From contig JAHFCH010000001.1 of NCBI GenBank assembly GCA_023249635.1, positions 67,718 through 127,198 on the forward strand: 59,481 nucleotides of DNA, read 5' to 3'. How positions within the stretch are numbered: position 1 is the first letter of the stretch; each line of letters begins with the position of its first letter. The translations under genes were made by a program, and so were the position numbers. The notes under the pieces were generated by a model, which saw nothing but the letters and a program-made list of their open reading frames with translations, was not told where the DNA came from and ran no database searches. Source of the stretch: Fibrobacterota bacterium. Lineage in GTDB: Bacteria; Fibrobacterota; Fibrobacteria; UBA11236. Shown here in pieces: positions 7,288-28,742 of this stretch.

Positions 7288-7883
7288 AGCGTTCCATTGC
7301 GGCGAAGCCACGGAACGGGCAAGCCGGCATCAGTATCATCGAGTTGGCCATCTCCATCGGCTTAGGCGGCATGCTGGTGGCTTCAGCCACCTACCTCTTC
7401 GTAGGCCAGGTGCGAGGCTACAAGGACATCGGCTCGCAGGCGCGCCTGCAGACCATGACCAAAGCGGCGGTACAGACGATGAACACCGAGATCGCCAATA
7501 CCGGCGCCTGCCTGGCGAACAAACGGTACAAGTTCACCATGGCCGCCAACCAGGTGCAGTTCGCCTACGTGGATCTCAAGGCCCGGCATTGCGCGGCCAC
7601 GGATACCGTCACCGTCCTGTACTACGTCAAGTCGGGGGGAAGCCTCACGGATACCTTGATGGAGAAGATCACCTGCAATAGCAATCCTCCAAGGTATCAG
7701 GGCATGATCAGGGGAGTCGGTAAGGTCACCATGGCGGTTACCTATTACGATCTCAACGGAGCCGTGACCGCGGCTCCGGCCAAAGTCAAAGCCCTCCAAT
7801 TCAGCCTGGACGTGACGTCCGGGGCCAAGAGTCTGTACGCAAAGAGCCGCAAGCCTACGGTGCGGGTGGAGTTGCTGAACTGA
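7284..7883 (+). CDS. Type IV minor-pilin-like protein (PilW-like)
   Basis: The protein has 199 residues, starting at ATG 7284 inside the ATGA overlap with the previous gene. The leader ends NGQAG, cleaved before ISIIELAISIG, with the canonical Glu at +5 and a long hydrophobic helix. The mature part has about 170 residues with four Cys (around TGACL, ARHCA and ITCN), as in PilW-type minor pilins stabilised by disulfides. Its place between the PilV-like and PilX-like genes matches the order of minor pilin operons. It likely primes pilus assembly or forms the tip complex. No adhesin domain is visible. Confidence 0.75.
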   Translation: MKRSIAAKPRNGQAGISIIELAISIGLGGMLVASATYLFVGQVRGYKDIGSQARLQTMTKAAVQTMNTEIANTGACLANKRYKFTMAANQVQFAYVDLKARHCAATDTVTVLYYVKSGGSLTDTLMEKITCNSNPPRYQGMIRGVGKVTMAVTYYDLNGAVTAAPAKVKALQFSLDVTSGAKSLYAKSRKPTVRVELLN

Positions 7884-8461
7884 TGCGCGCAAATGGAATG
7901 GAACTTTCCCGGAAAGCCGCGCGCGGGCAATCCGGCATGGCCATGGTCATCATCCTCGGCCTGCTCATCGTGCTTACCATCATGGGCTCGGTGGCCGTAT
8001 TCAGCGTCCGCGGAGAGGTGGGCCATACCGGCCGCGACTCCAACCACGCCCGCGCGCAACTGGTCGCCGAAAGCGCCCTGAACTGGGCCATCAGCGCCTT
8101 GCAGAAGGAAAAGCCCAACGTACTCGCCTATACCGCGGCTACCCACGCCAGCAACGGCAAGGATAAGCTGCCCGATAACCTGGCCAACGGAGCGTCCAAC
8201 AACCGCAAGCTGCACACCGATGACATGGTTCCCATCTATCCCGGGCACGTGCAGATCGATGAGGACGGGTGGATCTACCAGCAGACCTTGGACAATAAGG
8301 TGAGCCTCACGGGCGTTTCCGACGAAACCCTCGCATTCAAGATCTGGTTCCCCAACGACACCACCATCCGCTTGAGCGGTAGAGGCACGGTTTCCGGCGT
8401 ATCCGCGGAAGTGGAAATGACGGGAAACCTTCTCTTCGATGCTTCGCCCGTACTCAAATGA
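7883..8461 (+). CDS. PilX-like minor pilin/pseudopilin
   Basis: The protein has 192 residues. Its start overlaps the stop of the PilW-like gene by one base (TGATG). The N-terminus has RGQSG followed by MAMVIILGLLIVLTIMGS, the PilX_N pattern, which naturally lacks Glu at +5 (here Ile). The mature domain continues with ARAQLVAESALNWAISAL, the conserved helical continuation of PilX/GspK-type proteins. It completes the four-gene operon 6164-8461. A role in pilus tip assembly or as an adhesive minor pilin is inferred from the family. Confidence 0.72.
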   Translation: MRANGMELSRKAARGQSGMAMVIILGLLIVLTIMGSVAVFSVRGEVGHTGRDSNHARAQLVAESALNWAISALQKEKPNVLAYTAATHASNGKDKLPDNLANGASNNRKLHTDDMVPIYPGHVQIDEDGWIYQQTLDNKVSLTGVSDETLAFKIWFPNDTTIRLSGRGTVSGVSAEVEMTGNLLFDASPVLK

Positions 8462-11690: not shown

Positions 11691-12323
11691 TCACGGCGCC
11701 AGCACCGTTACCGCATCCACGGCGAAATCCTGGATCCCGTCGCCGGCGAAATACAACCGCGAACCGAAAAAAGGCTCGTAGGGTATCGCGCCGGTTTCCT
11801 TCCCGTTCACGGAGTAGCGCATCACGGTTCCTTGCTTGCGGATTTCCAGGGTATTGCGCTCCGGATCCACGGCCGCTGAGGCGGTCCAGGGCACGTATTC
11901 ATACAGGCCACCGGGCTCCCGCTTGAACAAGGTGTATTGACGATCCCGGGAAGCGAAGAAGCAGTAGCGGTGATCGGGATCGGCTCCGCCCCAGCAAAAG
12001 CCATAGCCCAGATCCCGTTCCGAAGCGTAAGAATGCAGACTGACGCGCATGATGAAGTCCCCGTTCTCCGGAATGGGAACCGCCTTGGAAACCAGCACGC
12101 CGCTATCGTTTAAAGACCGCAGGAAATATTCGCCGTCCGTGATCTCGAAATCGTAGGCGTCGGGCGATGCACCCGTGAACCAATTGTATCCGTTACCTTC
12201 GAATCCATCCTGGAACAGCACGTGTTCGGGGCCCTGGTAGGGAACCGTTTCCGTGGCGATCTCGCACCCGCCCAGTAAGAACGCCGTCGCGCAGCCTACC
12301 GCAACGGGAATGCGGGAGATCAT
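11691..12323 (-). CDS. Lipoprotein with concanavalin-like beta-sandwich fold
   Basis: The protein has 210 residues. The signal peptide ends with the lipobox LLGGC, Cys near residue 20. The rest (LFQDGFEGNGYNWFTG, YGFCWGG, TLEIRKQGTVMRYSVNG, LYFAGDGIQDFAVDAV) resembles the jelly-roll domains of DUF1080/LamG-type proteins, probably a carbohydrate-binding lipoprotein. It is the last gene of the three-gene operon led by the GH38-like mannosidase, overlapping the upstream gene by ATGA. It is convergent with the barrel gene ending at 11680, leaving only 10 bases between the stops. Confidence 0.6.
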   Translation of the reverse strand: MISRIPVAVGCATAFLLGGCEIATETVPYQGPEHVLFQDGFEGNGYNWFTGASPDAYDFEITDGEYFLRSLNDSGVLVSKAVPIPENGDFIMRVSLHSYASERDLGYGFCWGGADPDHRYCFFASRDRQYTLFKREPGGLYEYVPWTASAAVDPERNTLEIRKQGTVMRYSVNGKETGAIPYEPFFGSRLYFAGDGIQDFAVDAVTVLAP

Positions 12324-12973
12324 TCGGACCTCCGCGCCGCGCGGATGGCGGCCACGCGGGCGCGCAGCTCTGTGTCAATGCCCTGGTCCATGGCTTTGGC
12401 GCGCGCGGCTTCCCCGGCCTCCGCGGAATCAATGAGGGCGGGATTCCACTCCAACCGGAAGGGAGGGGCATCCGCTCCCTCCGGATGAACCTTACCGTCG
12501 CCGCCCAGGACCGCCGCGCCTTGTCGGAGCGGATCGTCCGGTAGGGATTCCGTCCAGTTATGCGCGGCCGGCGAGGCGGTGCCTGAGGGCAAGGCCGTGC
12601 CCGGCCCAAAGGCCGTACCGGGGGCATAACGGTAGGCGAAAAGGGATAGGATCTCCGTCGCACTTCCGCCCGACGGAGTACGGACGCCGGCGCCCGAAGG
12701 TAACATTCGTATTACCCTGCGCTTCGCGTCCAGCACCCGCAACCGAAGTTTCCCGTCGAACGCGCGCGGGAAAGGCAGTGCCACCTGGGCTTCCCCGTCT
12801 TCAATAGGCGATTCGCTCGCCGGGCCTTCCGCTTCCAGGGCCAGGGTGAGCCCGGATACGGGATGACCGTAGGCGTCCAGGAACCGGCACGCGAAAACGA
12901 CATAGGGGCTGCCATGCCCGTAAGATTCGGAGGCCGCCAAGGCCACCGCCACCGACCAGAGGGACGTTCTCAT
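12320..12973 (-). CDS. Hypothetical secreted protein in the mannosidase operon
   Basis: The protein has 217 residues with a likely signal peptide ending at SYGHG. I recognise no family. Residues of about 25-80 (FLDAYGHPVSGLTLALEAEG, LRLRVLDAKRRV) look like an Ig-like or carboxypeptidase-regulatory beta domain. The C-terminal 40 residues are Ala/Arg/Glu-rich and probably helical. It overlaps genes on both sides by ATGA, so it is translated with the mannosidase and the lipoprotein and probably serves the same process. Confidence 0.55.
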   Translation of the reverse strand: MRTSLWSVAVALAASESYGHGSPYVVFACRFLDAYGHPVSGLTLALEAEGPASESPIEDGEAQVALPFPRAFDGKLRLRVLDAKRRVIRMLPSGAGVRTPSGGSATEILSLFAYRYAPGTAFGPGTALPSGTASPAAHNWTESLPDDPLRQGAAVLGGDGKVHPEGADAPPFRLEWNPALIDSAEAGEAARAKAMDQGIDTELRARVAAIRAARRSE

Positions 12974-15900
12974 GGCTGCGCCTCCGCGCCGTGCGGATGC
13001 TTGCGCCCGCCATTGCTGTTCCCGATACCGCCTTCCCCGGCGCGGGTCCTCCAGGCTGCCGCATCCTTGTCGGCCTTGGAGATGGAAACCGGAACGCGGT
13101 CATCGCCCAGCACCATGAATTCCGCCAAGCCGCCATTGGTCCCCGTTCCTCCCTCGGCCTGGAAGCGCACCCACGTCACCGATTTCCAGGGGAAGGTGAG
13201 CAAGCGGGCTTCGCCCCAAGTGGCCAGGCCCGTCACCCGCAAGCTGCTGCCGTCGCTGAAGGTAAGCAAGCCTCCGTTGAGATTGTCCGCGGCATTGGAG
13301 CGATCGTACAAGACGACACCGCGGATGGCCTGTGGCTCCTTCCATTCCAGGTGGGCCCAGGGATTGGTTTCCCCTTTGGACACCCATTCCCCCTCGTCCC
13401 AGAGGCCGGTAATCCCGTCGCTGGCCTTGTCCTTGCTATGGGCCTGGTCGAATTCCGAGGAAACCGTGAGCGTCGCCGCCGGCGCCAGGTTGAGCCAATC
13501 GGGAAGGGCGGGACCGGAAGTGACACGGGGCGAAAGGGCGGAACGGTTGCCTGCCTTATCGAAGGCGAGCACCTGGTAATAGGCCATTTGGTTATAGTCC
13601 AAATCGTTCGCGGCCGGAGTGTAGATGTCCAAATGGCTGTTGAGGATGGCCTCCACGGTGATCAGCTTCTGGCCGTCGCGCCATACCTCGTATCCCGTCA
13701 CCGCTTTGTCGTCCAGGGAAGGCCGCCATTCCAGGGAAGCCCGGGTGCCATGCAAGCGCTCCACCTTTACCAGCGCCGGAACCGTAGGCGGAGTCTTATC
13801 GGTATAGGCGGCCGCCGTCGCCTGGATGGATGGGGATGCGGAGGCCTTGGCCCCGCCTCCCGCCGCGCGCACGCGGTACCAATAGGACCGTTTTAGGCCG
13901 GGAACCACTTGGGGATCGAAGAATTGCGGCCGCTCCGTAACGCCCAGGTAACTGCCGGAGCCGGCGGTGAAATCGGCTTGCGTCCCGCGAAAGACTTCCC
14001 AATACGCGGCCGGGGCCGACGTCCACGCCAGGCGGCAGCCGTCGGCGAGGATGGATGCGGAAAGCCCGGCGACCGCGGCGGGGGCCGTCCCACGCCTGAG
14101 GCGGACGGTTTTCCAGCCGAAGGCATGGATGGCGAAGCTGAGCTTGCCTCCCGCCAGGGCCAACCCGCCGCGATCGTTCTCGATGAGATCGGTCTCCCCC
14201 GCCCCGGAAGCAGCCAGCCGGGAAACGTCCACGGTAACCTGGGTGTTACGGCCTTCGATTTCGTTGAAGCGCAGGATCATCCCCTCCCCGTTGTCTTCGG
14301 CTAATTTGGCGGTGGCCAGGACCACATTGGGCTGATCGATGGGGAGGAAGGACGCCGCGGCTTCGGCCAGCGGCCCGTCCTGCGGGCGCTTTACCACGGA
14401 AACCTGCAACGGATCGGAAGCCTCGCAGCCCAGGCGGGGCGCGCCCTGCGACCAATCGTTCCCGCCATGGGGCCGGAAGGAATAGCGGAAACGGGTGAGG
14501 CCGGGCTGAACGGCCTGGAAATTGGTATGCCAGTGGTTGTTGTAGATCATGCTCCAGATCCAGGGATGCTCATGGTTGTAGCCCACGCCCCATTGCATGG
14601 CCCTCCGGCCGCCATAGGAGACCATGGGCGCGGTCAAGGCCGAGAAGGCGATGCCGTACCCTTTGCCGTCGCTGATATCGATCCAGCGGTTTACCGCATA
14701 CTGATCGGTAGCCGAGGAGTAAAGCTGTTCCATGCCGGTATCGCGGGTATCCGGGGAAACGGCCGGCGAGAGCGATCCCGTGGGCATCTCATGGCGCAGG
14801 GAATATCCGGGCATGGAAAAGGGGAATGCGAAATGGAAATCCCATTTGTCCCCGCCATCGGCCTTGAGCAAGGAATTCTCGATGTCGATACGCGGTAGGC
14901 TATCGTAGAGGATGACGCGGCGCTGCAGGGACTCGACCCCCAAAGCTCCGGCAGTCCCGTCGGCGAGCATTTCCGACTGTAAGGCACCGGCGGTCGCGTA
15001 CATTTTCACCGGCCCAGCGGCGAAAGCTTCGTTCACCTGAAGCTGATTGAACTTCGCGGGTGCGAGCGCATCGACCAGTTCCCGATCCCCGGCGGCCTTG
15101 TCCTTGATGGAAGTGATATTACCGGCGGCATCGAAAGCGATCCGGAACCATGCGTTCTCGAGGGAATTCGCGGAGGTCACCGACGATCCGGTAAAGCGGG
15201 GCGCATCGGCGACGGACGTCACTTCGAATACCTTATAGCCCAACCCCGGAACCCCCTTGGCCTGGAACACCATGCGCCCATCCTGGAGCACCTGGTAGCG
15301 TACCGGCAGCCCGGTGGCGGCGTCCTTGAGGCTGAAACGGGGCGGTAAATCCGCCAACGGCACATAGGCAAGGTCGTCCCGGATCCACGACAGCGGATTG
15401 AAAACGACCAGGCTCCACCCCTTGGTCTTGACCGTGGCGGAAAGGGAGGCCAGGGATGCCTTGAGGATATCATCCCCGCTGCCGTCGCCGATCAAAGCGG
15501 TGTTCCGCTTCCAATTCCACTGATCCCCGGCGCTCCGATCCGCCGGTCCCCAGGTATGCTCATCCCAGGTCAACAGGTTCTTCCAAGCCAAGGTAAGCCG
15601 CTCCTGCGGGTAGGCCGCCGCGGCCCCGAACGCGGAGGCGAAGGACGCGAAGGTCTCGGCCGCCGCAAGCTTGTCCTGGGCGCCGCGATTGCGTCCGGTC
15701 TCGTAGGCCGTGGAGGGAACGCCCAGGTTCCACCACGATTCCACGTCCCCTTTGAAGGTCGGGATGGCCGCGGTGTCCCCCGCCAGGATATGGTCGAAGA
15801 AGTCGCCGTGGTTGGAAGCGATCACCTTCGGGTAGGCGTATCCCTTGGCGGCCAGCAAATCGTTGACGCCCTTGATGCGTTCCATGACGTTGGGATTGAT

Positions 15901-17061
15901 GCGGCTGTTATCCACCCAACCTTTGGCATTGGGCGAGGTGAAGGTGGCGAGCCAGGCATCCTGGTTATAACCCTCCTTCGCCAATTGCGCGAACCATGCG
16001 AGTACCTGATCATAGGCGGCCTGGCTATTGGCGCCTTGGAAACCGAAGGCGGGGCCTATGTTGGCGTTCTCGTTCATATAATGCCCGCCGTTCCAGATCA
16101 GCACTTTATGCGCGGGATCGCGGCCGCGCAGGTAGAAGAGGCGCGGATAATGGAAGATGTCCCACTTGTCGAAATCGTTGTTGAAGCGGAAACGGTATGC
16201 CTTGATACCGGATTCGGCCAAGGCGTCGATGAAGGACCAACTGAGGCTGGGATTATCGGTCATGTAGGCGGCGGTGGCAGGAGCCACTCCGAGCATGTCG
16301 CGCAAATGACGGTTGGAGATATAACCGGATCGCGCCAATTCCTCGCTGCCCATGGTCTCGGTGCTGAAATTGAAATAGCTGGGCGGGTAGCTGATACGGC
16401 CGCTGCGAAGATGGCCTTTCAGGGTCTCGTGCCAATCCGCGTTGCGGGAAATCCAGGTGCCGTCGTAGATCATGAAGGACGATTCGATGGGATAGGTGAA
16501 GCGCGATTCCACCGGCCAGGCGGCGGTGGCGTCGATGTAGTCGAATGCGGTATCCAGATACGCAGGATACAGGCTCCGTTTCAGGTTCTCCTGGTAGGTG
16601 GTATACCCGATGTCGACATGGCAATCGTTGGCCACGTACAAGGTCCAACGCTTGATGCGCTTTTGCGGAAGGCTGCGGGCCGCCAGCGGGTTTCCGGTGC
16701 CCGCGACATCGGTGAAAATCTGGAAAGAGACATCGGCAGTGGCCGCCGCGAGCTCGGCCACGTGGACGGTGCGGGTATTCGCGCCCGCGGCGAGGTTTCC
16801 CAGGGATTCCATATAGGCCGGCGTGCCGGGTACCGTGATGCGGACCCAGGCGGCGAACGCCGCATCGGATTGGATGGAAAGCGCGGCTTCGGACTTGAGC
16901 AGTCCGCCTTCCTTGATCAGGACCACCGAGGGCTGTGCCGCGCCCGTAATGGTAACGGTTTGCGCTTCGGCGCCTGCGTAGCCTGCCGCAGCCAAAGCCA
17001 ATGCCGCGGCCAACCCCCGCGCGTAGGTAACTTTCAGGTTAACAAAGTTCAGGTCCCGCAT
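12970..17061 (-). CDS. Secreted GH38-like alpha-mannosidase, multidomain
   Basis: The protein has 1363 residues from ATG 17061, which follows GGTGGGGGG; a GTG at 17073 is the alternative. The signal peptide ends AGAEAQ. The catalytic region begins with NDCHVDIGYT (zinc-binding H-x-D near residue 148), continues through MTDNPSLSW and VLIWNGGHYMNEN, and is followed by the long beta-rich GH38 C-terminal domains (to about residue 960). Two fibronectin type III domains follow, then a C-terminal F5/8-type C carbohydrate-binding domain (SSEFDQAHSKDKASDG, WAHLEW). It likely releases alpha-mannose from glycans outside the cell or in the periplasm. It leads an operon with two small secreted proteins and has the GTTTACA palindrome promoter upstream. 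Confidence 0.82.
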   Translation of the reverse strand: MRDLNFVNLKVTYARGLAAALALAAAGYAGAEAQTVTITGAAQPSVVLIKEGGLLKSEAALSIQSDAAFAAWVRITVPGTPAYMESLGNLAAGANTRTVHVAELAAATADVSFQIFTDVAGTGNPLAARSLPQKRIKRWTLYVANDCHVDIGYTTYQENLKRSLYPAYLDTAFDYIDATAAWPVESRFTYPIESSFMIYDGTWISRNADWHETLKGHLRSGRISYPPSYFNFSTETMGSEELARSGYISNRHLRDMLGVAPATAAYMTDNPSLSWSFIDALAESGIKAYRFRFNNDFDKWDIFHYPRLFYLRGRDPAHKVLIWNGGHYMNENANIGPAFGFQGANSQAAYDQVLAWFAQLAKEGYNQDAWLATFTSPNAKGWVDNSRINPNVMERIKGVNDLLAAKGYAYPKVIASNHGDFFDHILAGDTAAIPTFKGDVESWWNLGVPSTAYETGRNRGAQDKLAAAETFASFASAFGAAAAYPQERLTLAWKNLLTWDEHTWGPADRSAGDQWNWKRNTALIGDGSGDDILKASLASLSATVKTKGWSLVVFNPLSWIRDDLAYVPLADLPPRFSLKDAATGLPVRYQVLQDGRMVFQAKGVPGLGYKVFEVTSVADAPRFTGSSVTSANSLENAWFRIAFDAAGNITSIKDKAAGDRELVDALAPAKFNQLQVNEAFAAGPVKMYATAGALQSEMLADGTAGALGVESLQRRVILYDSLPRIDIENSLLKADGGDKWDFHFAFPFSMPGYSLRHEMPTGSLSPAVSPDTRDTGMEQLYSSATDQYAVNRWIDISDGKGYGIAFSALTAPMVSYGGRRAMQWGVGYNHEHPWIWSMIYNNHWHTNFQAVQPGLTRFRYSFRPHGGNDWSQGAPRLGCEASDPLQVSVVKRPQDGPLAEAAASFLPIDQPNVVLATAKLAEDNGEGMILRFNEIEGRNTQVTVDVSRLAASGAGETDLIENDRGGLALAGGKLSFAIHAFGWKTVRLRRGTAPAAVAGLSASILADGCRLAWTSAPAAYWEVFRGTQADFTAGSGSYLGVTERPQFFDPQVVPGLKRSYWYRVRAAGGGAKASASPSIQATAAAYTDKTPPTVPALVKVERLHGTRASLEWRPSLDDKAVTGYEVWRDGQKLITVEAILNSHLDIYTPAANDLDYNQMAYYQVLAFDKAGNRSALSPRVTSGPALPDWLNLAPAATLTVSSEFDQAHSKDKASDGITGLWDEGEWVSKGETNPWAHLEWKEPQAIRGVVLYDRSNAADNLNGGLLTFSDGSSLRVTGLATWGEARLLTFPWKSVTWVRFQAEGGTGTNGGLAEFMVLGDDRVPVSISKADKDAAAWRTRAGEGGIGNSNGGRKHPHGAEAQP

Positions 17062-17105: not shown

Positions 17106-17167
17106 AATCTAACCGGCGCGATAATTAAGGGAAGGGCATCGGCCGCCGAGCGTTTACAAGTGTAAAC
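17106..17167 (-). promoter_or_regulatory. Mannosidase promoter: TAGATT -10 and GTTTACA-N2-TGTAAAC operator
   Basis: On the minus strand GGTTAGATT (17114 to 17106) is the -10 region and the expected -35 (CTTCCC) is poor. A perfect 16-bp palindrome occupies 17152-17167. Exactly 37 bases separate palindrome and GGTTAGATT, the same as in front of the TIGR02147 gene at 20041-20102. The palindrome centre falls near -61, suggesting activation. Confidence 0.7.
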
Positions 17168-17206
17168 ACCCCGTACCCGTTTCGACCCGGGTCCGCAGCG
17201 TTTATC

Positions 17207-19138
17207 CTATGGAGATGAGGGCGGCTGCAGGCGCAACCATTCCAAATCGAGCGCGCCCGCTCCGGTTTCGACCCGAAGCGTATCCACGCCTCCGGTGAGG
17301 TGGACGCGCACGCGCCGGAGATTGAAATAGGGAGCCATGGGTACGTCCTGTCGCGCGAGCGCGTCCCCGACCCGTCCGGCTTGGAACCATCCTGAGTCGG
17401 GCATACGGCAGCGTAGCTCCAGGTCCCAATCCCCGCTGTCCGCCTGTACCCTATAGGCGGCCCAGTCTCCGGCCGGCAGGGCATGGATGGCCAAGCTCCC
17501 GGCTTCCCCGGAAGTATCCACCTTGAAGGCCGTGTCCGTCGCATGCAATGCGTAACCTTCCGCCGGGATGGTGTCCCCGACCCGCCAGGGATGGTAGGCA
17601 TCCGCGGTTCCCACGGCCGCGAAGAAATCCCGTTGGATGCCCGCGAATCCGGTTGTCCCGGAGGGAATATCCAGGAACCCGTATTCGGCCCCGGCGCCGA
17701 CCGGCTGCTTTCCCGCTGCGGGCACGACGGAAGGGCGGGCTCCCGTCAGCAACTCCCCATCGTATAGGAAGGCCGCGCCGGCCATATCGCCGAAGAAGCG
17801 GAAGGGATGGTTCGCCGCCGCGTATCGCTCCGCAACGGCTTCCGCGAAACGGTTCCCCGGTAACAGGGGCGTTACCTTGGCGAGGGTGTCCCAGGTGAAA
17901 GCGGTTCCCCATTCCACCAGGCGGCAGCGCTGCGAGGCTACGTACACGGCAAGGGTATCTTCCCCGGGACGATTGAAATTGAAAGTGGCGAAAACGATCA
18001 TGCGTTCGGCGATGGCCGGATCGGAAAGCACGGCGGAAGCCACCGTGGTCATGGGGCCGCCCGCGAAGACCAGCAGGGGCTTCTCGGGAGTGGCTTTGGC
18101 GGCCTCGGCGGCGATCAGGGCGCTGCCCGGGCTCGGCAGGGGAACGATATCCTCCCAACGGCCGGAAGCGGGCAAGGACAGGCGACCGGAGACTCCCGCC
18201 ACCGGTTCGGGAATATTGCGGAGGCCCGCATGGCGCGCGATTTCCAGTTCGCGGAAACTGGGCCGGTAAAAGGCCCGGAAGGATTCGGCGTCCGCGCCCG
18301 GCACCCCGGGCAGGATGAGACCGCGCAAATCGGCTTTGCCCAGGCTGGCCTGAACCCACAGGAACTCGTCATCGGCGGTATTGTCGAACCGATCGTTGTC
18401 GTAGATGATGGGGTTGCCCGCGGCGAAACCTTCCAGATGCAGGCGGCCGCCGGACAGATCAAAGACCTGCCGCGCGCGCTGGCCCAACACCACCTCGCCG
18501 ACATCGGTGGTGGAATCGGGAGCAACCGGGATACCGGCCAGATCGACGCTGTCCTGGAATGGCAGGCGGCTGGAGAAGCTCAAGCCGTGGACGCCCGCAG
18601 GCACACCGGCCAGGACGAAGGCTCCGGCGCTATCGGCAAGCGCAGCGATGCCCAAGCCGTAGATCCGCGCCAGGGAAGGGCGGCGCGCGCCATCGGCATA
18701 GCGTATCCTGCCGGTTACCTGGCCGGGATGCCGCAGGGATATCGCGGGGAAATCCAGGCGGGCGGCGGTATCCGCGAAAGTGGCCTCCACGACGGCAGCC
18801 AGGGAATCACCGCAACGCATCTCGATGCGGTAGGACCCGGCCGGGATGGAATCGAAATGGAACCGGCCCTGGGCATCCGCTTGCGCCTTGCGCGTGCCCC
18901 GCGTCGACGGGGAGGATTCCAGGGGATCCTTGAGGTACTCAACCGCGCGTAACTCCAGCATGGCGCATTTCGCCGCAGCGCCCCCGGGGAGCAGAATGCG
19001 GCCGGTGGCTTTCGCGCCACCGGTCTCGGTATCCGTCGCACCCCCGGCCACGGCGATATCCCTTCCGCAACCGATGGGCCCGGAAAGCATCGCCAACGCA
19101 GCGCAGATTAGCAGCAAAGAGCGCGCCGCGGCCCTCAT
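17207..19138 (-). CDS. Lipoprotein with nucleoside-hydrolase-like domain, coupled to TIGR02147 regulator
   Basis: The protein has 643 residues. The frame is open far upstream, but ATG 19138 overlaps the TIGR02147 stop (ATGA) and gives a signal peptide with lipobox GPIGC near residue 23. After DTETGG come two carboxypeptidase-regulatory-like domains (about residues 40-200). Then a domain starts IIYDNDRFDNTADDEF, resembling the Asp cluster of inosine-uridine nucleoside hydrolases. It continues LLVFAGGPMTTVASAVL, like the GPLTN segment of that family and of DUF1593 proteins. The C-terminal 120 residues look like a CBM6/35-type sandwich (VDTLRVETGAGALDLEWL). Probably a surface glycan-related enzyme or receptor; the hydrolytic function is inferred only. 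Confidence 0.68.
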   Translation of the reverse strand: MRAAARSLLLICAALAMLSGPIGCGRDIAVAGGATDTETGGAKATGRILLPGGAAAKCAMLELRAVEYLKDPLESSPSTRGTRKAQADAQGRFHFDSIPAGSYRIEMRCGDSLAAVVEATFADTAARLDFPAISLRHPGQVTGRIRYADGARRPSLARIYGLGIAALADSAGAFVLAGVPAGVHGLSFSSRLPFQDSVDLAGIPVAPDSTTDVGEVVLGQRARQVFDLSGGRLHLEGFAAGNPIIYDNDRFDNTADDEFLWVQASLGKADLRGLILPGVPGADAESFRAFYRPSFRELEIARHAGLRNIPEPVAGVSGRLSLPASGRWEDIVPLPSPGSALIAAEAAKATPEKPLLVFAGGPMTTVASAVLSDPAIAERMIVFATFNFNRPGEDTLAVYVASQRCRLVEWGTAFTWDTLAKVTPLLPGNRFAEAVAERYAAANHPFRFFGDMAGAAFLYDGELLTGARPSVVPAAGKQPVGAGAEYGFLDIPSGTTGFAGIQRDFFAAVGTADAYHPWRVGDTIPAEGYALHATDTAFKVDTSGEAGSLAIHALPAGDWAAYRVQADSGDWDLELRCRMPDSGWFQAGRVGDALARQDVPMAPYFNLRRVRVHLTGGVDTLRVETGAGALDLEWLRLQPPSSP

Positions 19139-19983
19139 GCGCGCTTCCGGGTCAAAGGGAACAGATTCACGGTCATCTGGTACACGGCCTCGGGTCCGGC
19201 ATCCTGGCGGGCCGTCTCCATGGCATGGGTCCGGAAATCCCGCAGCCGCCCGATAATCTTCTCGAAACCCTTGCGCGACAGGCTCATGGTGGTAGAAGAA
19301 GCGATGCGATCCGCGGGCGCGCAACGTTCGAAGGCTTCGATGGCCATCTCCAGCATCTTCACCTGATGGCGGATGATCTGGTAATCCTGGATGCCGAAAC
19401 CGGTGGTGATGAGCGGCTCGGCCTGGACGTAGCGGCCTTTGTCCTTCGCCAGGAAACCCAGCTCCAGGAGGAGCTGAACCGATTCCTCCGCCTTCTCCGC
19501 GCTGATGGCCGGGTTGAGCATCCGCCCCAGCGCCCCGAAATCGGGGGCCCCGGAGGGCCCCTCCTTGAAATCCGTCATCACAACCAGCTCGCGGATCACG
19601 CAATGGTGCCAGTCGCGAAAATAACCGTACTGATCCTTGCGGATGCGCAGGATGTTACGCGCCTTCTGGAGCGCGATCAATCGATCAAAGAACTGGTTCT
19701 TCTCGCGCACGGTGCGGGCCTGGTTGAAGAAGACCAGATGCTCGAAATACTCCGCCTCCTTGTCCTTGAGCCCGAGCGCCGAGCAGGTCTTAAGCAAGGT
19801 GCTCTTGGTGAGGTTGCGCGTGCCTTCGATGAGGAACTTGAAGAAGGGCGCGGAGTTGATGCCGGCCTTTTCTGCCAGGTAGCGATAGGAGAAATTCGGA
19901 TTCACCGCCTTATGGCGTTCGTAGTAGTCCTTGATGAACTTCCGGTAATCGGAATACTCGTAGATATCGTCCATGGACCCCAT
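19135..19983 (-). CDS. TIGR02147 family HTH regulator (copy 1)
   Basis: The protein has 282 residues; ATG 19974 is an alternative start. It opens with IYEYSDYRKFIKDYYE and then an XRE-like helix-turn-helix, YLAEKAGINSAPFFKFL followed by NLTKSTLLKTCSALGL (about residues 34-72). An all-helical middle follows, and it ends with the family signature VYQMTVNLFPLT. TIGR02147 is a paralogous family expanded in Fibrobacter, with DUF4423-like architecture. Its stop overlaps the start of the lipoprotein gene (ATGA). A perfect GTTTACA palindrome precedes its promoter and also the mannosidase promoter, making it the best candidate to bind both. DNA binding is inferred from the HTH. Confidence 0.82.
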   Translation of the reverse strand: MGSMDDIYEYSDYRKFIKDYYERHKAVNPNFSYRYLAEKAGINSAPFFKFLIEGTRNLTKSTLLKTCSALGLKDKEAEYFEHLVFFNQARTVREKNQFFDRLIALQKARNILRIRKDQYGYFRDWHHCVIRELVVMTDFKEGPSGAPDFGALGRMLNPAISAEKAEESVQLLLELGFLAKDKGRYVQAEPLITTGFGIQDYQIIRHQVKMLEMAIEAFERCAPADRIASSTTMSLSRKGFEKIIGRLRDFRTHAMETARQDAGPEAVYQMTVNLFPLTRKRA

Positions 19984-20040
19984 CGGCCGAAGGCTTCGCG
20001 CGCAGTCCCGGGGACGCGGCGGCGAAACGCCGGCTCCCCG

Positions 20041-20102
20041 AATCTAACCGAAAGGGCCGCTTTCAGGGGGTGGGGACGGCCCGCCCGTTTACACCTGTAA
20101 AC
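20041..20102 (-). promoter_or_regulatory. TIGR02147 promoter: TAGATT -10 and GTTTACA-N2-TGTAAAC operator
   Basis: GGTTAGATT lies at 20049 to 20041 on the minus strand and the perfect palindrome at 20087-20102, again 37 bases apart, exactly as at 17106-17167. The expected -35 (CCCCTG) is poor. The palindrome sits inside the last codons of the fucosidase gene ending at 20063. Confidence 0.7.
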
Positions 20103-21943
20103 ACCTGTTCCTCCAAAACCCCAAGCGCACCGCCCCCGGGCGAGCGCAGTAAGCCTTGTGGATGGCCGGGTTTTACGCGGTTTCGGGACAACGAGGATGC
20201 GGGCGTTTCCGACATCGATCCGAAGACCTTCACGTTGCGCAGGTGCAACCAACCGTTTTCCCTAAGGCCCAGCTTAAGGTAGCGTCCGGCGATGCCCTTG
20301 CCCTCGGCACCGCCCAGGACCGCATTCCAGACTTCCGCGGCTTCGGTAGCGCGCCATGCTTCCGTCCACGCCTTCCCGTCCCCGGACACCCAGGCGGTCA
20401 GGGTGCGCGCGCGCGCCCGGAAAGCCGTGTCTGCGCGATTGGCGATTTGCAATCCCATCACCCGCGCATCGGCCCCCAGGTCGATTACCAGGCTTGGCGA
20501 CTCTTCCTGATCGGTATGGAAGGCGAAATCCTTGGCGTCCCCGGATAGCAACTCCGCGCGCGACGCGTTAAAGGGATCGAGGACGGAACTTTGCGTGTAT
20601 GCGAGGCCGGGCGAAAGCCAGGATCCGTTCATCACCATCCGGATGGTTTCCGCCACGGGGTCACGTCCCGCCTTTGGTACCGTAACAATCAAGTTACCTC
20701 CGGCGCGGGAAACCCCCACTTGCCCGCCACCCAGTCGGGACGTGGAGAGGACTTGCAAGGGGATGTCCGGAAGCACGCATCGATCGGAACCGTCCCATTT
20801 GAGCACATGGACGTAGATGGTATCGCCGCGCCAAGTGGCGCCCCCCCAAGCCCCAGGGACCCAGGGTCCGCCCCGGGTGCCGTACAGGCCTTCCGCATGG
20901 ACCGTGGTCCAGGCCCCTATGGACCGTAACATGGCGGCTTCATTGGCGGCCATCCGGCCGTCCGGACCCGGCCCGATATTGAGCATGTAGTTGCCGTCGC
21001 CTCCCAACGTCTGGACGATCTCCCGGATGTAATCGGAAACGGGTCGCATCACGTTGCCGGGGCGGTACGCCCATTGATCGGCAAGGGTATTGCAGGTCTC
21101 CCAGGGGCGACGCAAATCGAAAGCGCCAATCTGCTTTTCCGGGGTATCGTAGTCACCGGGCGCCGCGGGAAAGTCGCGGGCCCAACCGCCCCGATCGCCG
21201 TACACGCGATTGTCGATGACGAGAGAGGGCTTAAGCAGTTTCAACGTCCGGTATACGTCCTTGCCGTAAGCGTGGCCGCCCTGGGACCAGGTGGCATCCC
21301 AATCCCCGTCGAACCAAATCGCGCCCGGGTCATACTTGGCGATCAGCTCTCCTACCTGCGACTTGAGATAAGCCACGTAGCGATCCATGCTGGGCGCCTG
21401 TCCCGCAGGCAACGCGTATCCGGGGCCGCCCGGGCCGGCCGGCTGCCAATCCGGTTGGTACCAGTCCAACACCGAATAATACGCGTCGAAACGCACGCCT
21501 TGGCGCTTGCATTCCCGCGTCAGCTCCCCGGTCGCATCGCGGCCGAAAGGCGATGCCATGATGTCGTAATCGGTGAACTTGGAATCCCACAGGCAGAATC
21601 CGTCATGATGCTTCGTGGTCAGGGTCAAGTAGCGGAAGCCGCCGGCCTTGGCCACGTCCACCCATTCACGAGCGTCAAAACCCGTCGGATTGAAGCCCTT
21701 ATACAGGCCGTCGTATTCGGCGCGGGGAACCTGGGTGCCGCGGGACCAGCCGATTTCGGTGCCTTTCAGGCTTACCGGTCCCCAGTGGATGAACAGCCCC
21801 AAGCGTGAGTAGCGCCATGCCGCCAATCCCTTGGCGGTCGAATCGGGGTGGGGATCGCCTTGCGCCCCCGCCCGGTGCGCCGATATCGTCCCGGCCAATG
21901 CCATGGCGGCTCCCAGCCGCATCATCTTGTCCATCATTTCCAT
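20063..21943 (-). CDS. GH29 alpha-L-fucosidase (copy 1) with C-terminal F5/8 domain
   Basis: The protein has 626 residues. ATG 21943 follows an AAGGGGGG ribosome-binding run. The signal peptide ends HRAGAQ. GH29 hallmarks are RLGLFIHWGP, LTTKHHDGFCLWDSKFTDYD, and AIWFDGDWD near residue 220, where the Asp of WFDG is the expected nucleophile; GGDGNYMLNIGPGPDG follows. About residues 460-575 form an F5/8-type C carbohydrate-binding domain ending LHLRNVKVFG. A 51-residue low-complexity tail follows, overlapping the regulatory region of the TIGR02147 gene. It is paralogous to and downstream of the second fucosidase, with AraC-type boxes before both. It is probably a secreted enzyme removing alpha-fucose from plant, algal or animal glycans. 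Confidence 0.9.
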   Translation of the reverse strand: MEMMDKMMRLGAAMALAGTISAHRAGAQGDPHPDSTAKGLAAWRYSRLGLFIHWGPVSLKGTEIGWSRGTQVPRAEYDGLYKGFNPTGFDAREWVDVAKAGGFRYLTLTTKHHDGFCLWDSKFTDYDIMASPFGRDATGELTRECKRQGVRFDAYYSVLDWYQPDWQPAGPGGPGYALPAGQAPSMDRYVAYLKSQVGELIAKYDPGAIWFDGDWDATWSQGGHAYGKDVYRTLKLLKPSLVIDNRVYGDRGGWARDFPAAPGDYDTPEKQIGAFDLRRPWETCNTLADQWAYRPGNVMRPVSDYIREIVQTLGGDGNYMLNIGPGPDGRMAANEAAMLRSIGAWTTVHAEGLYGTRGGPWVPGAWGGATWRGDTIYVHVLKWDGSDRCVLPDIPLQVLSTSRLGGGQVGVSRAGGNLIVTVPKAGRDPVAETIRMVMNGSWLSPGLAYTQSSVLDPFNASRAELLSGDAKDFAFHTDQEESPSLVIDLGADARVMGLQIANRADTAFRARARTLTAWVSGDGKAWTEAWRATEAAEVWNAVLGGAEGKGIAGRYLKLGLRENGWLHLRNVKVFGSMSETPASSLSRNRVKPGHPQGLLRSPGGGALGVLEEQVFTGVNGRAVPTP

Positions 21944-27791: not shown

Positions 27792-27856
27792 GTATACATT
27801 TGTTAACACCTGGAGGCCCGGAAAGGGTGGGCGCAGCCCCCTCCGTAACGTATGAT
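27792..27856 (+). promoter_or_regulatory. Variant GTTTACA-like operator and TATGAT -10 before TIGR02147 copy 2
   Basis: The site at 27792-27807 reads GTATACA-TT-TGTTAAC, one change per half from the perfect palindromes at 17152 and 20087. A TATGAT -10 candidate lies at 27851-27856, about 51 bp from its centre. The 209-base gap 27694-27902 also holds the divergent promoter of the sigma-factor gene. Confidence 0.45.
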
Positions 27857-27902: not shown

Positions 27903-28742
27903 ATGAGCAACGAAAAAACGGAACCGGACGTCCTCCACTACTCGAATTACCGCACCTTCCTGCTCGATTACTACGAGTTCAAGAAGGCCGAGCAACCGAT
28001 CTTCTCGCACCGGTACTTCGCCCAGAAGGCGGGCATTACCAGCCCCAACTACCTGAAGCTGGTCATGGACGGCAAACGTAACCTCACCAAGAAATCCCTG
28101 CTCAAGTTCGCGGCGGCCCTGGGGCTCAAGGGATTGCGCGCGGAGTTCTTCGAAAATTTGGTATTTTTCAACCAGGCGACCGCGCTCCCGGAGCGCAACG
28201 TCCATTACGGGAACATCTTGCGTGTGCGCGCGAAGGCGGGCTTGCGTAAGCTGGACGAGGCCCAGTTCCAGCTCTTCTCGGATTGGCGGCATATCGCGGT
28301 GCGCGAATTGGCCGCGGCGAAAGGCTTCCGGCCGGACGCGAAATGGGTGGCGAAGAAACTGGGCAAGGCCATCACGGAGAAGGAGGCGGAGGAATCCCTG
28401 AAATTGCTGAGCATCCTGGGCCTGCTCAAGAAGACGGCCAACGGTTTCATGCAAAGCGACATCAACATCACCACCTCCGACGAAGTGCGTTCCCTACTCG
28501 TGAAGAATTACCACCATCAGATGATGCGCATGGGCGCCGCGGCCCTGGACAATCTGCCCGCCGCCAAACGCGACATCTCTTCCATCACCATTCCCATCCA
28601 CGCCAAGGATTTCGCCCGGGTCAAAGAACAGATCCAATTGATGCGCAAGGAGCTGCTCAATCTGGGCGCCGAGCCGGGCACCGGCGAAGATGTGGTCCAG
28701 GTGAACATCCAATTGTTCCCCCTTACCGAGATGGGGGCCTAA
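27903..28742 (+). CDS. TIGR02147 family HTH regulator (copy 2)
   Basis: The protein has 279 residues, collinear with copy 1: VLHYSNYRTFLLDYYE, then YFAQKAGITSPNYLKLVMDGKRNLTKKSLLKFAAALGL as the XRE-like HTH, FFENLVFFNQA, a helical middle with KEAEESLKLLSILGLL, and the C-terminal signature VVQVNIQLFPLT. It is 4 bases upstream of a lipoprotein gene, repeating the arrangement at 17207-19983. It is divergent from the ECF/bufferin operon. A role as a transcription regulator of its own lipoprotein operon is inferred from the HTH and the operator-like site upstream. Confidence 0.82.
   Translation: MSNEKTEPDVLHYSNYRTFLLDYYEFKKAEQPIFSHRYFAQKAGITSPNYLKLVMDGKRNLTKKSLLKFAAALGLKGLRAEFFENLVFFNQATALPERNVHYGNILRVRAKAGLRKLDEAQFQLFSDWRHIAVRELAAAKGFRPDAKWVAKKLGKAITEKEAEESLKLLSILGLLKKTANGFMQSDINITTSDEVRSLLVKNYHHQMMRMGAAALDNLPAAKRDISSITIPIHAKDFARVKEQIQLMRKELLNLGAEPGTGEDVVQVNIQLFPLTEMGA

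Follow-up and report, generated by a model that had tools for sequence, protein, structure and literature searches.

Palindromic sites at TIGR02147–lipoprotein genes: a recurring layout that suggests a so far undescribed system of local gene control in the Fibrobacter phylum

Genes and palindromes of the locus

The stretch of DNA analysed here (the window; 59,481 nucleotides, C319:67718-127198) belongs to the genome of a Fibrobacterota bacterium of 6.75 Mb in 341 contigs. On its minus strand, two fucosidase genes are followed, in this order, by a palindromic site, the gene of a TIGR02147 regulator, a lipoprotein gene, a second site, the gene of a GH38-like protein and two small open reading frames (ORFs). 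The features considered in the following are:

11691-12323, minus strand: 210-aa lipoprotein-like ORF, presumed to lie in the same operon as the GH38-like gene
12320-12973, minus strand: 217-aa ORF that shares 4 bp with the GH38-like gene and presumably belongs to its operon
12970-17061, minus strand: GH38-like protein of 1363 aa, the presumed target (Glyco_hydro38C2, sub-threshold Alpha-mann_mid, DUF7402)
17106-17111, minus strand: -10-like TAGATT, 40 bp from the operator at 17152-17167
17152-17167, minus strand: candidate operator GTTTACACTTGTAAAC (minus reading), a perfect palindrome before the GH38-like operon
17207-19138, minus strand: lipoprotein of 643 aa with a weak CarboxypepD_reg match, overlapping the TIGR02147 gene by 4 bp
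19135-19983, minus strand: TIGR02147/DUF4423 regulator of 282 aa with an N-terminal XRE-type helix-turn-helix (HTH); the start may be 19974
20041-20046, minus strand: -10-like TAGATT, 40 bp from the operator at 20087-20102
20087-20102, minus strand: candidate operator GTTTACAGGTGTAAAC (minus reading), a perfect palindrome before the TIGR02147 operon
27792-27807, plus strand: diverged site GTATACATTTGTTAAC, which precedes another TIGR02147 gene at 27903-28742

For the 217-aa and 210-aa ORFs, no family was found in Pfam or NCBIfam, and the GH38-like protein has no Pfam match to a catalytic N-terminal GH38 domain; judged from its sequence, "mannosidase" is reasonably taken as a name only, for a putative activity.

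A sequence-only reading of this DNA had described perfect palindromes in front of the GH38-like and the TIGR02147 operons, and both are indeed present, reading GTTTACAAGTGTAAAC at 17152-17167 and GTTTACACCTGTAAAC at 20087-20102 on the plus strand. Their arms are identical, with the common consensus GTTTACA-N2-TGTAAAC, and the central dinucleotides differ (AG and CC, respectively, on the plus strand). The equal spacing claimed for them is exact, with 37 bases on the minus strand between each palindrome end and GGTTAGATT and 40 to TAGATT. When up to three mismatches are allowed, the palindrome occurs three times in the window, while 0.47 occurrences are expected and two is the maximum of 100 shuffles. 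The diverged site at 27792-27807 is possibly the own operator of the TIGR02147 paralog behind it. It had been overlooked that the site at 20087-20102 lies inside the 3' end of a fucosidase ORF (20063-21943). The same reading had also called the -35 regions poor; no -35 element is conserved among 16 site-bearing promoters, but a small sample of 18 promoters of other genes likewise lacks a clear one, so this is weak evidence.

The regulator encoded at 19135-19983 is a full-length member of the TIGR02147 (Fsuc_second)/DUF4423 family (positions 1-271 of 272; E 5e-79; 265.6 bits at a cut-off of 50). Its HTH assignment rests on a structure model, as Pfam finds no HTH in this protein; among its paralogs, HTH_3 is matched in 13 of 73. 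In the AlphaFold2 model (pLDDT 92.9), residues 9-97 form an XRE-type HTH which aligns structurally to HigA, P22 c2 and 434 Cro (VIA Z up to about 8), and the DUF4423 part has one 143-residue structure match over residues 115-277 (PDB 4g6q, Kfla_6221; Z 7). A sequence search found no significant relative of the regulator among solved structures. The protein is modelled with confidence as a Cro/cI-type HTH plus DUF4423. With the XRE/Cro-cI regulators it shares the modelled N-terminal fold and a candidate palindromic operator of fitting size; it differs from them in the DUF4423 that follows the HTH and in a site position that suggests activation.

Rarity, conservation and spread of the site

Genome-wide statistics are based on pattern searches together with fetched stretches. 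Instead of many palindromes away from promoters, which the sequence-only reading had named as evidence against itself, the genome holds only four perfect copies of GTTTACA-N2-TGTAAAC, all of them with (T/C)AGATT at exactly 40 bp; the reversed control pattern is absent. The two copies outside the window lie on contig C326 (L005 8192-8207 and 16042-16057), have CAGATT at exactly 40 bp, and precede a small secreted-like ORF and a Haem_oxygenas_2 gene, with no TIGR02147 gene directly adjacent. A LacI-type regulator considered at this place was rejected, as the ORF encodes the Haem_oxygenas_2 protein. The C326 pair is weaker evidence than the window pair, and CAGATT is not a canonical -10; given these two sites, the regulon is probably larger than originally thought.

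Further, less strict sites accompany a second regulator, C319:427, which is 62% identical to the window regulator. GTTTACAAAAGTAAAC is found both in its site and in that of an acetylesterase (SASA) operon on C250, and the site at C319:1343 has TATATT 40 bp away on one side and TACATT 42 bp away on the other, towards a GH99-like gene and the regulator. The left ends of C319 (L008) and C250 (L006) overlap inside one lipoprotein gene with a few small differences, which may reflect strain variation in the assembly. One further candidate, C291:5685 (GTTTACTCCTGTAAAC), was discarded; it lacks a suitably spaced -10 and could be a chance match.

In a relative, represented by the Fibrobacteres MAG contig JAQBPO010000042.1 (matching G005:C73; stretch L123), the whole cluster is kept, with identities of 81-83% for the regulator, 59% for the lipoprotein and 72% for the GH38-like protein. 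Both sites recur there letter for letter, including the central bases, at 7912 (GTTTACAGGTGTAAAC, regulator) and 10812 (GTTTACACTTGTAAAC, GH38-like protein), each 40 bp from TAGATT and in otherwise diverged flanks. Coding does not explain the conservation of the regulator-side site, because the L123 ORF upstream of the regulator ends at 7864 and the site falls outside it.

Across six genomes of the genus, the relaxed pattern GTTTAC-N4-GTAAAC occurs 27 times and its control pattern not at all. TAnATT is found at 40-42 bp in 13 of the 54 flanks of these sites, the expectation from its rate at other distances being 0.14 (binomial P 2e-22). Targets in the genus include the SASA acetylesterase and the GH99-like protein as well as genes with no adjacent regulator in the stretches read, namely those of ThuA (whose promoter has TAGGTT instead of TAnATT), a glucose/sorbosone dehydrogenase and a 3-keto-disaccharide hydrolase.

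Beyond the genus, 20 species from other genera of the class have a related TIGR02147 gene (about 36-37% identity) with a site zero to two mismatches away from GTTTAC-N4-GTAAAC, and the distance from this site to TAnnTT is 42 bp in 19 of them and 41 bp in one. These 20 genes form a different TIGR02147 group with the recognition helix LSSHAHLKL; most are from genus g4, which we infer to be Fibrobacter. Exact copies of the site are found in three of 12 scanned genomes of other genera, one in each, and only beside the TIGR02147 gene of the LSSHAHLKL group, at its own promoter.

These data bear on whether the palindromes are chance products, or relics of recent duplication, with no role. The spacers of the two C326 sites are alike, as expected of relics, but the rarity of the pattern, the zero control counts and the retention of the two window sites amid DNA that has otherwise diverged speak against such an origin. 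Conservation in L123, the sites in other genera and the spacing statistics make it appear very unlikely, so much so that we give it next to no weight.

The binding protein and its presumed mode of action

Among 82 upstream regions of paralogs, the site is present within one mismatch in just three, those of C319:86864 (the window regulator), C319:427 and C34:13974. The last two are the closest paralogs of the window regulator, and all three proteins have the recognition helix IN-S(A/T)-x-(F/Y)FKF in common. Different motifs stand before clades with different helices: GTTTCCA-N2-TGGAAAC, for example, precedes genes with the helix INSSGFYKN, and CGTTCAC-N5-GCAACG precedes genes with INSSAFYKY, 42-43 bp from TACCTT (counted on the sequences). 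This arrangement is consistent with direct binding by the TIGR02147 protein encoded next to each motif. The helix–operator match is a pattern in chosen clades and not a proven code, since helix identity and upstream similarity, compared for 69 paralogs in a Mantel test with a noisy measure, were not significantly correlated (r 0.04, P 0.053); a general recognition code was dropped accordingly.

A regulator of another family, encoded elsewhere, might bind GTTTACA-N2-TGTAAAC, with TIGR02147 as merely one of its targets, and the two perfect C326 copies with no TIGR02147 gene directly beside them would suit such a protein. We regard this as highly improbable: the site goes with the TIGR02147 clade from genome to genome and in different genera, the sole exact copy in each of the three genomes from other genera is at the promoter of that TIGR02147 gene itself, and paralog clades with other helices carry other motifs at the same place.

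As to the position of the site, 48.5 bp lie between its centre and the T of TAGATT, which puts the centre at about -60 to -61 from the predicted start, in agreement with the class I position near -61 that the sequence-only reading had assigned to it. In CRP-type class I activation, the activator site is centred near -61.5. Here, the -10 hexamer follows the centre at a distance of 48.5 to 50.5 bp, in fixed helical phase, and roughly one helical turn farther upstream paralog palindromes form a second cluster (-60 to -61.5 relative to the -10). The regulator, in contrast, is a protein unrelated to CRP, and its contact with RNA polymerase is putative. The class I reading would fit the site position, and the fixed promoter-distal spacing favours class I activation, as far as promoter geometry can indicate.

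Positions were also compared over the paralogs. A search for strict palindromes (7/7 pairs) at a fixed distance in all of them proved too strict, with one match; with a looser palindrome score, matches cluster at two distances from the -10, namely -48.5 to -52 and -60 to -61.5, where about 0.5 are expected per 5-bp bin. Upstream of the TIGR02147 paralogs we also noted a promoter element, GKTATATT, in which TAnATT is strongly conserved (log-likelihood 75, compared with about 23 in shuffles). A separate observation concerns GTTTACC-N2-GGTAAAC-type sites near TIGR02147 genes with the helix MNSTSWLL (G005:C52:8208, G002:C39:123229 and G001:C230:3206), for which no -10 was found at 40-42 bp.

The sign of regulation has to be weighed separately, as the same TIGR02147 protein might bind both sites as a repressor, or switch sign with a ligand. 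XRE-type HTH proteins are often repressors, the structural neighbours of the HTH include P22 c2, 434 Cro and HigA, and in other TIGR02147 clades no more than about 10-25 bp separate the repeats from the -10, a position suited to repression; conserved repeats of this kind in ortholog groups of other genera (L177-L211) are GTGTTCCC (helix GYSSSGFYLDL) and GTGTGGAC (helix DSSMFNKIL). The sites described here, however, have their centres about 48 bp ahead of the -10 and thus outside the core promoter, and the spacing of 40-42 bp recurs in many promoters, whereas repression needs no such fixed promoter-distal phase. Repression, or a ligand-dependent switch, is on balance unlikely, though it deserves more weight than an unlinked regulator does. 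A universal class I geometry of TIGR02147 proteins was rejected, as other ortholog groups have promoter-proximal repeats or no palindrome, and members of the family may act in different ways.

We consider it fairly probable that the window regulator binds both sites near -61 and acts as a class I activator of itself, the lipoprotein and the GH38 operon. In the mechanism we infer, the product of 19135-19983 would bind GTTTACA-N2-TGTAAAC directly, both in front of its own gene and at the promoter of the GH38 operon, and would probably do so as a dimer; from about -60 to -61 it would make a class I contact with RNA polymerase, most likely resulting in joint activation, rather than repression, of the regulator, the translationally coupled lipoprotein and the GH38-like operon, and the trigger would probably be a glycan-linked signal. 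The earlier proposal that these genes constitute one regulon gains support from linked conservation, clade restriction, rarity and fixed spacing, all of which, like the sites themselves, can be read from the DNA. The layout is common to part of a large family and not peculiar to the window locus.

TIGR02147–lipoprotein pairs in the phylum

TIGR02147 is matched 85 times in the genome. Of 60 Fibrobacterota genomes sampled, 53 contain the family, compared with none of 14 control genomes. By inspection, a lipoprotein gene follows nearly every one of the roughly 80 TIGR02147 genes that could be tested, mostly with a 4-bp overlap, and the pairing is also seen in another genus (LSSHAHLKL group). The partner lipoproteins, of which 17207-19138, 28747 (+) and 31690 (+) are examples in the window, share a motif at the mature N-terminus (AGG-SETTNG, SETGNP, EIGNP); a check for restriction of this motif to TIGR02147 partners covered just a few ORFs of the window. 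In the literature searched, which covers few subscription journals, no paper names TIGR02147; we found no function, operator or regulon described for TIGR02147 and no description of its pairing with lipoproteins, and the sole mention of DUF4423 merely lists a Bdellovibrio protein.

Polysaccharide utilisation loci with a local regulator occur in Bacteroidota. The loci described here resemble them in that a local regulator lies beside a lipoprotein and glycan-related genes (GH38-like protein, fucosidases, acetylesterase, ThuA, 3-keto-disaccharide hydrolase); they differ in having a soluble one-component regulator whose gene overlaps that of the lipoprotein. Tentatively, and at somewhat less than even confidence, we propose that TIGR02147–lipoprotein pairs constitute a phylum-wide local control of Fibrobacterota. 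Each genome would then contain dozens of copies of the cassette that arose by duplication; many of them would have an operator of their own that has diverged, and every one would control glycan genes in its vicinity, possibly with the lipoprotein contributing to sensing.

In the Fibrobacter succinogenes genome paper, the regulation of cellulase genes is an unanswered question, and few recognisable regulators are found near these genes (PMC3079729). With the layout described here, a large protein family that was formerly a mere paralog label gains a candidate operator, promoter geometry and regulon. Because each genome has dozens of members of this family, whose operators can be read and whose targets lie next to them, the question of cellulase regulation would become testable clade by clade.
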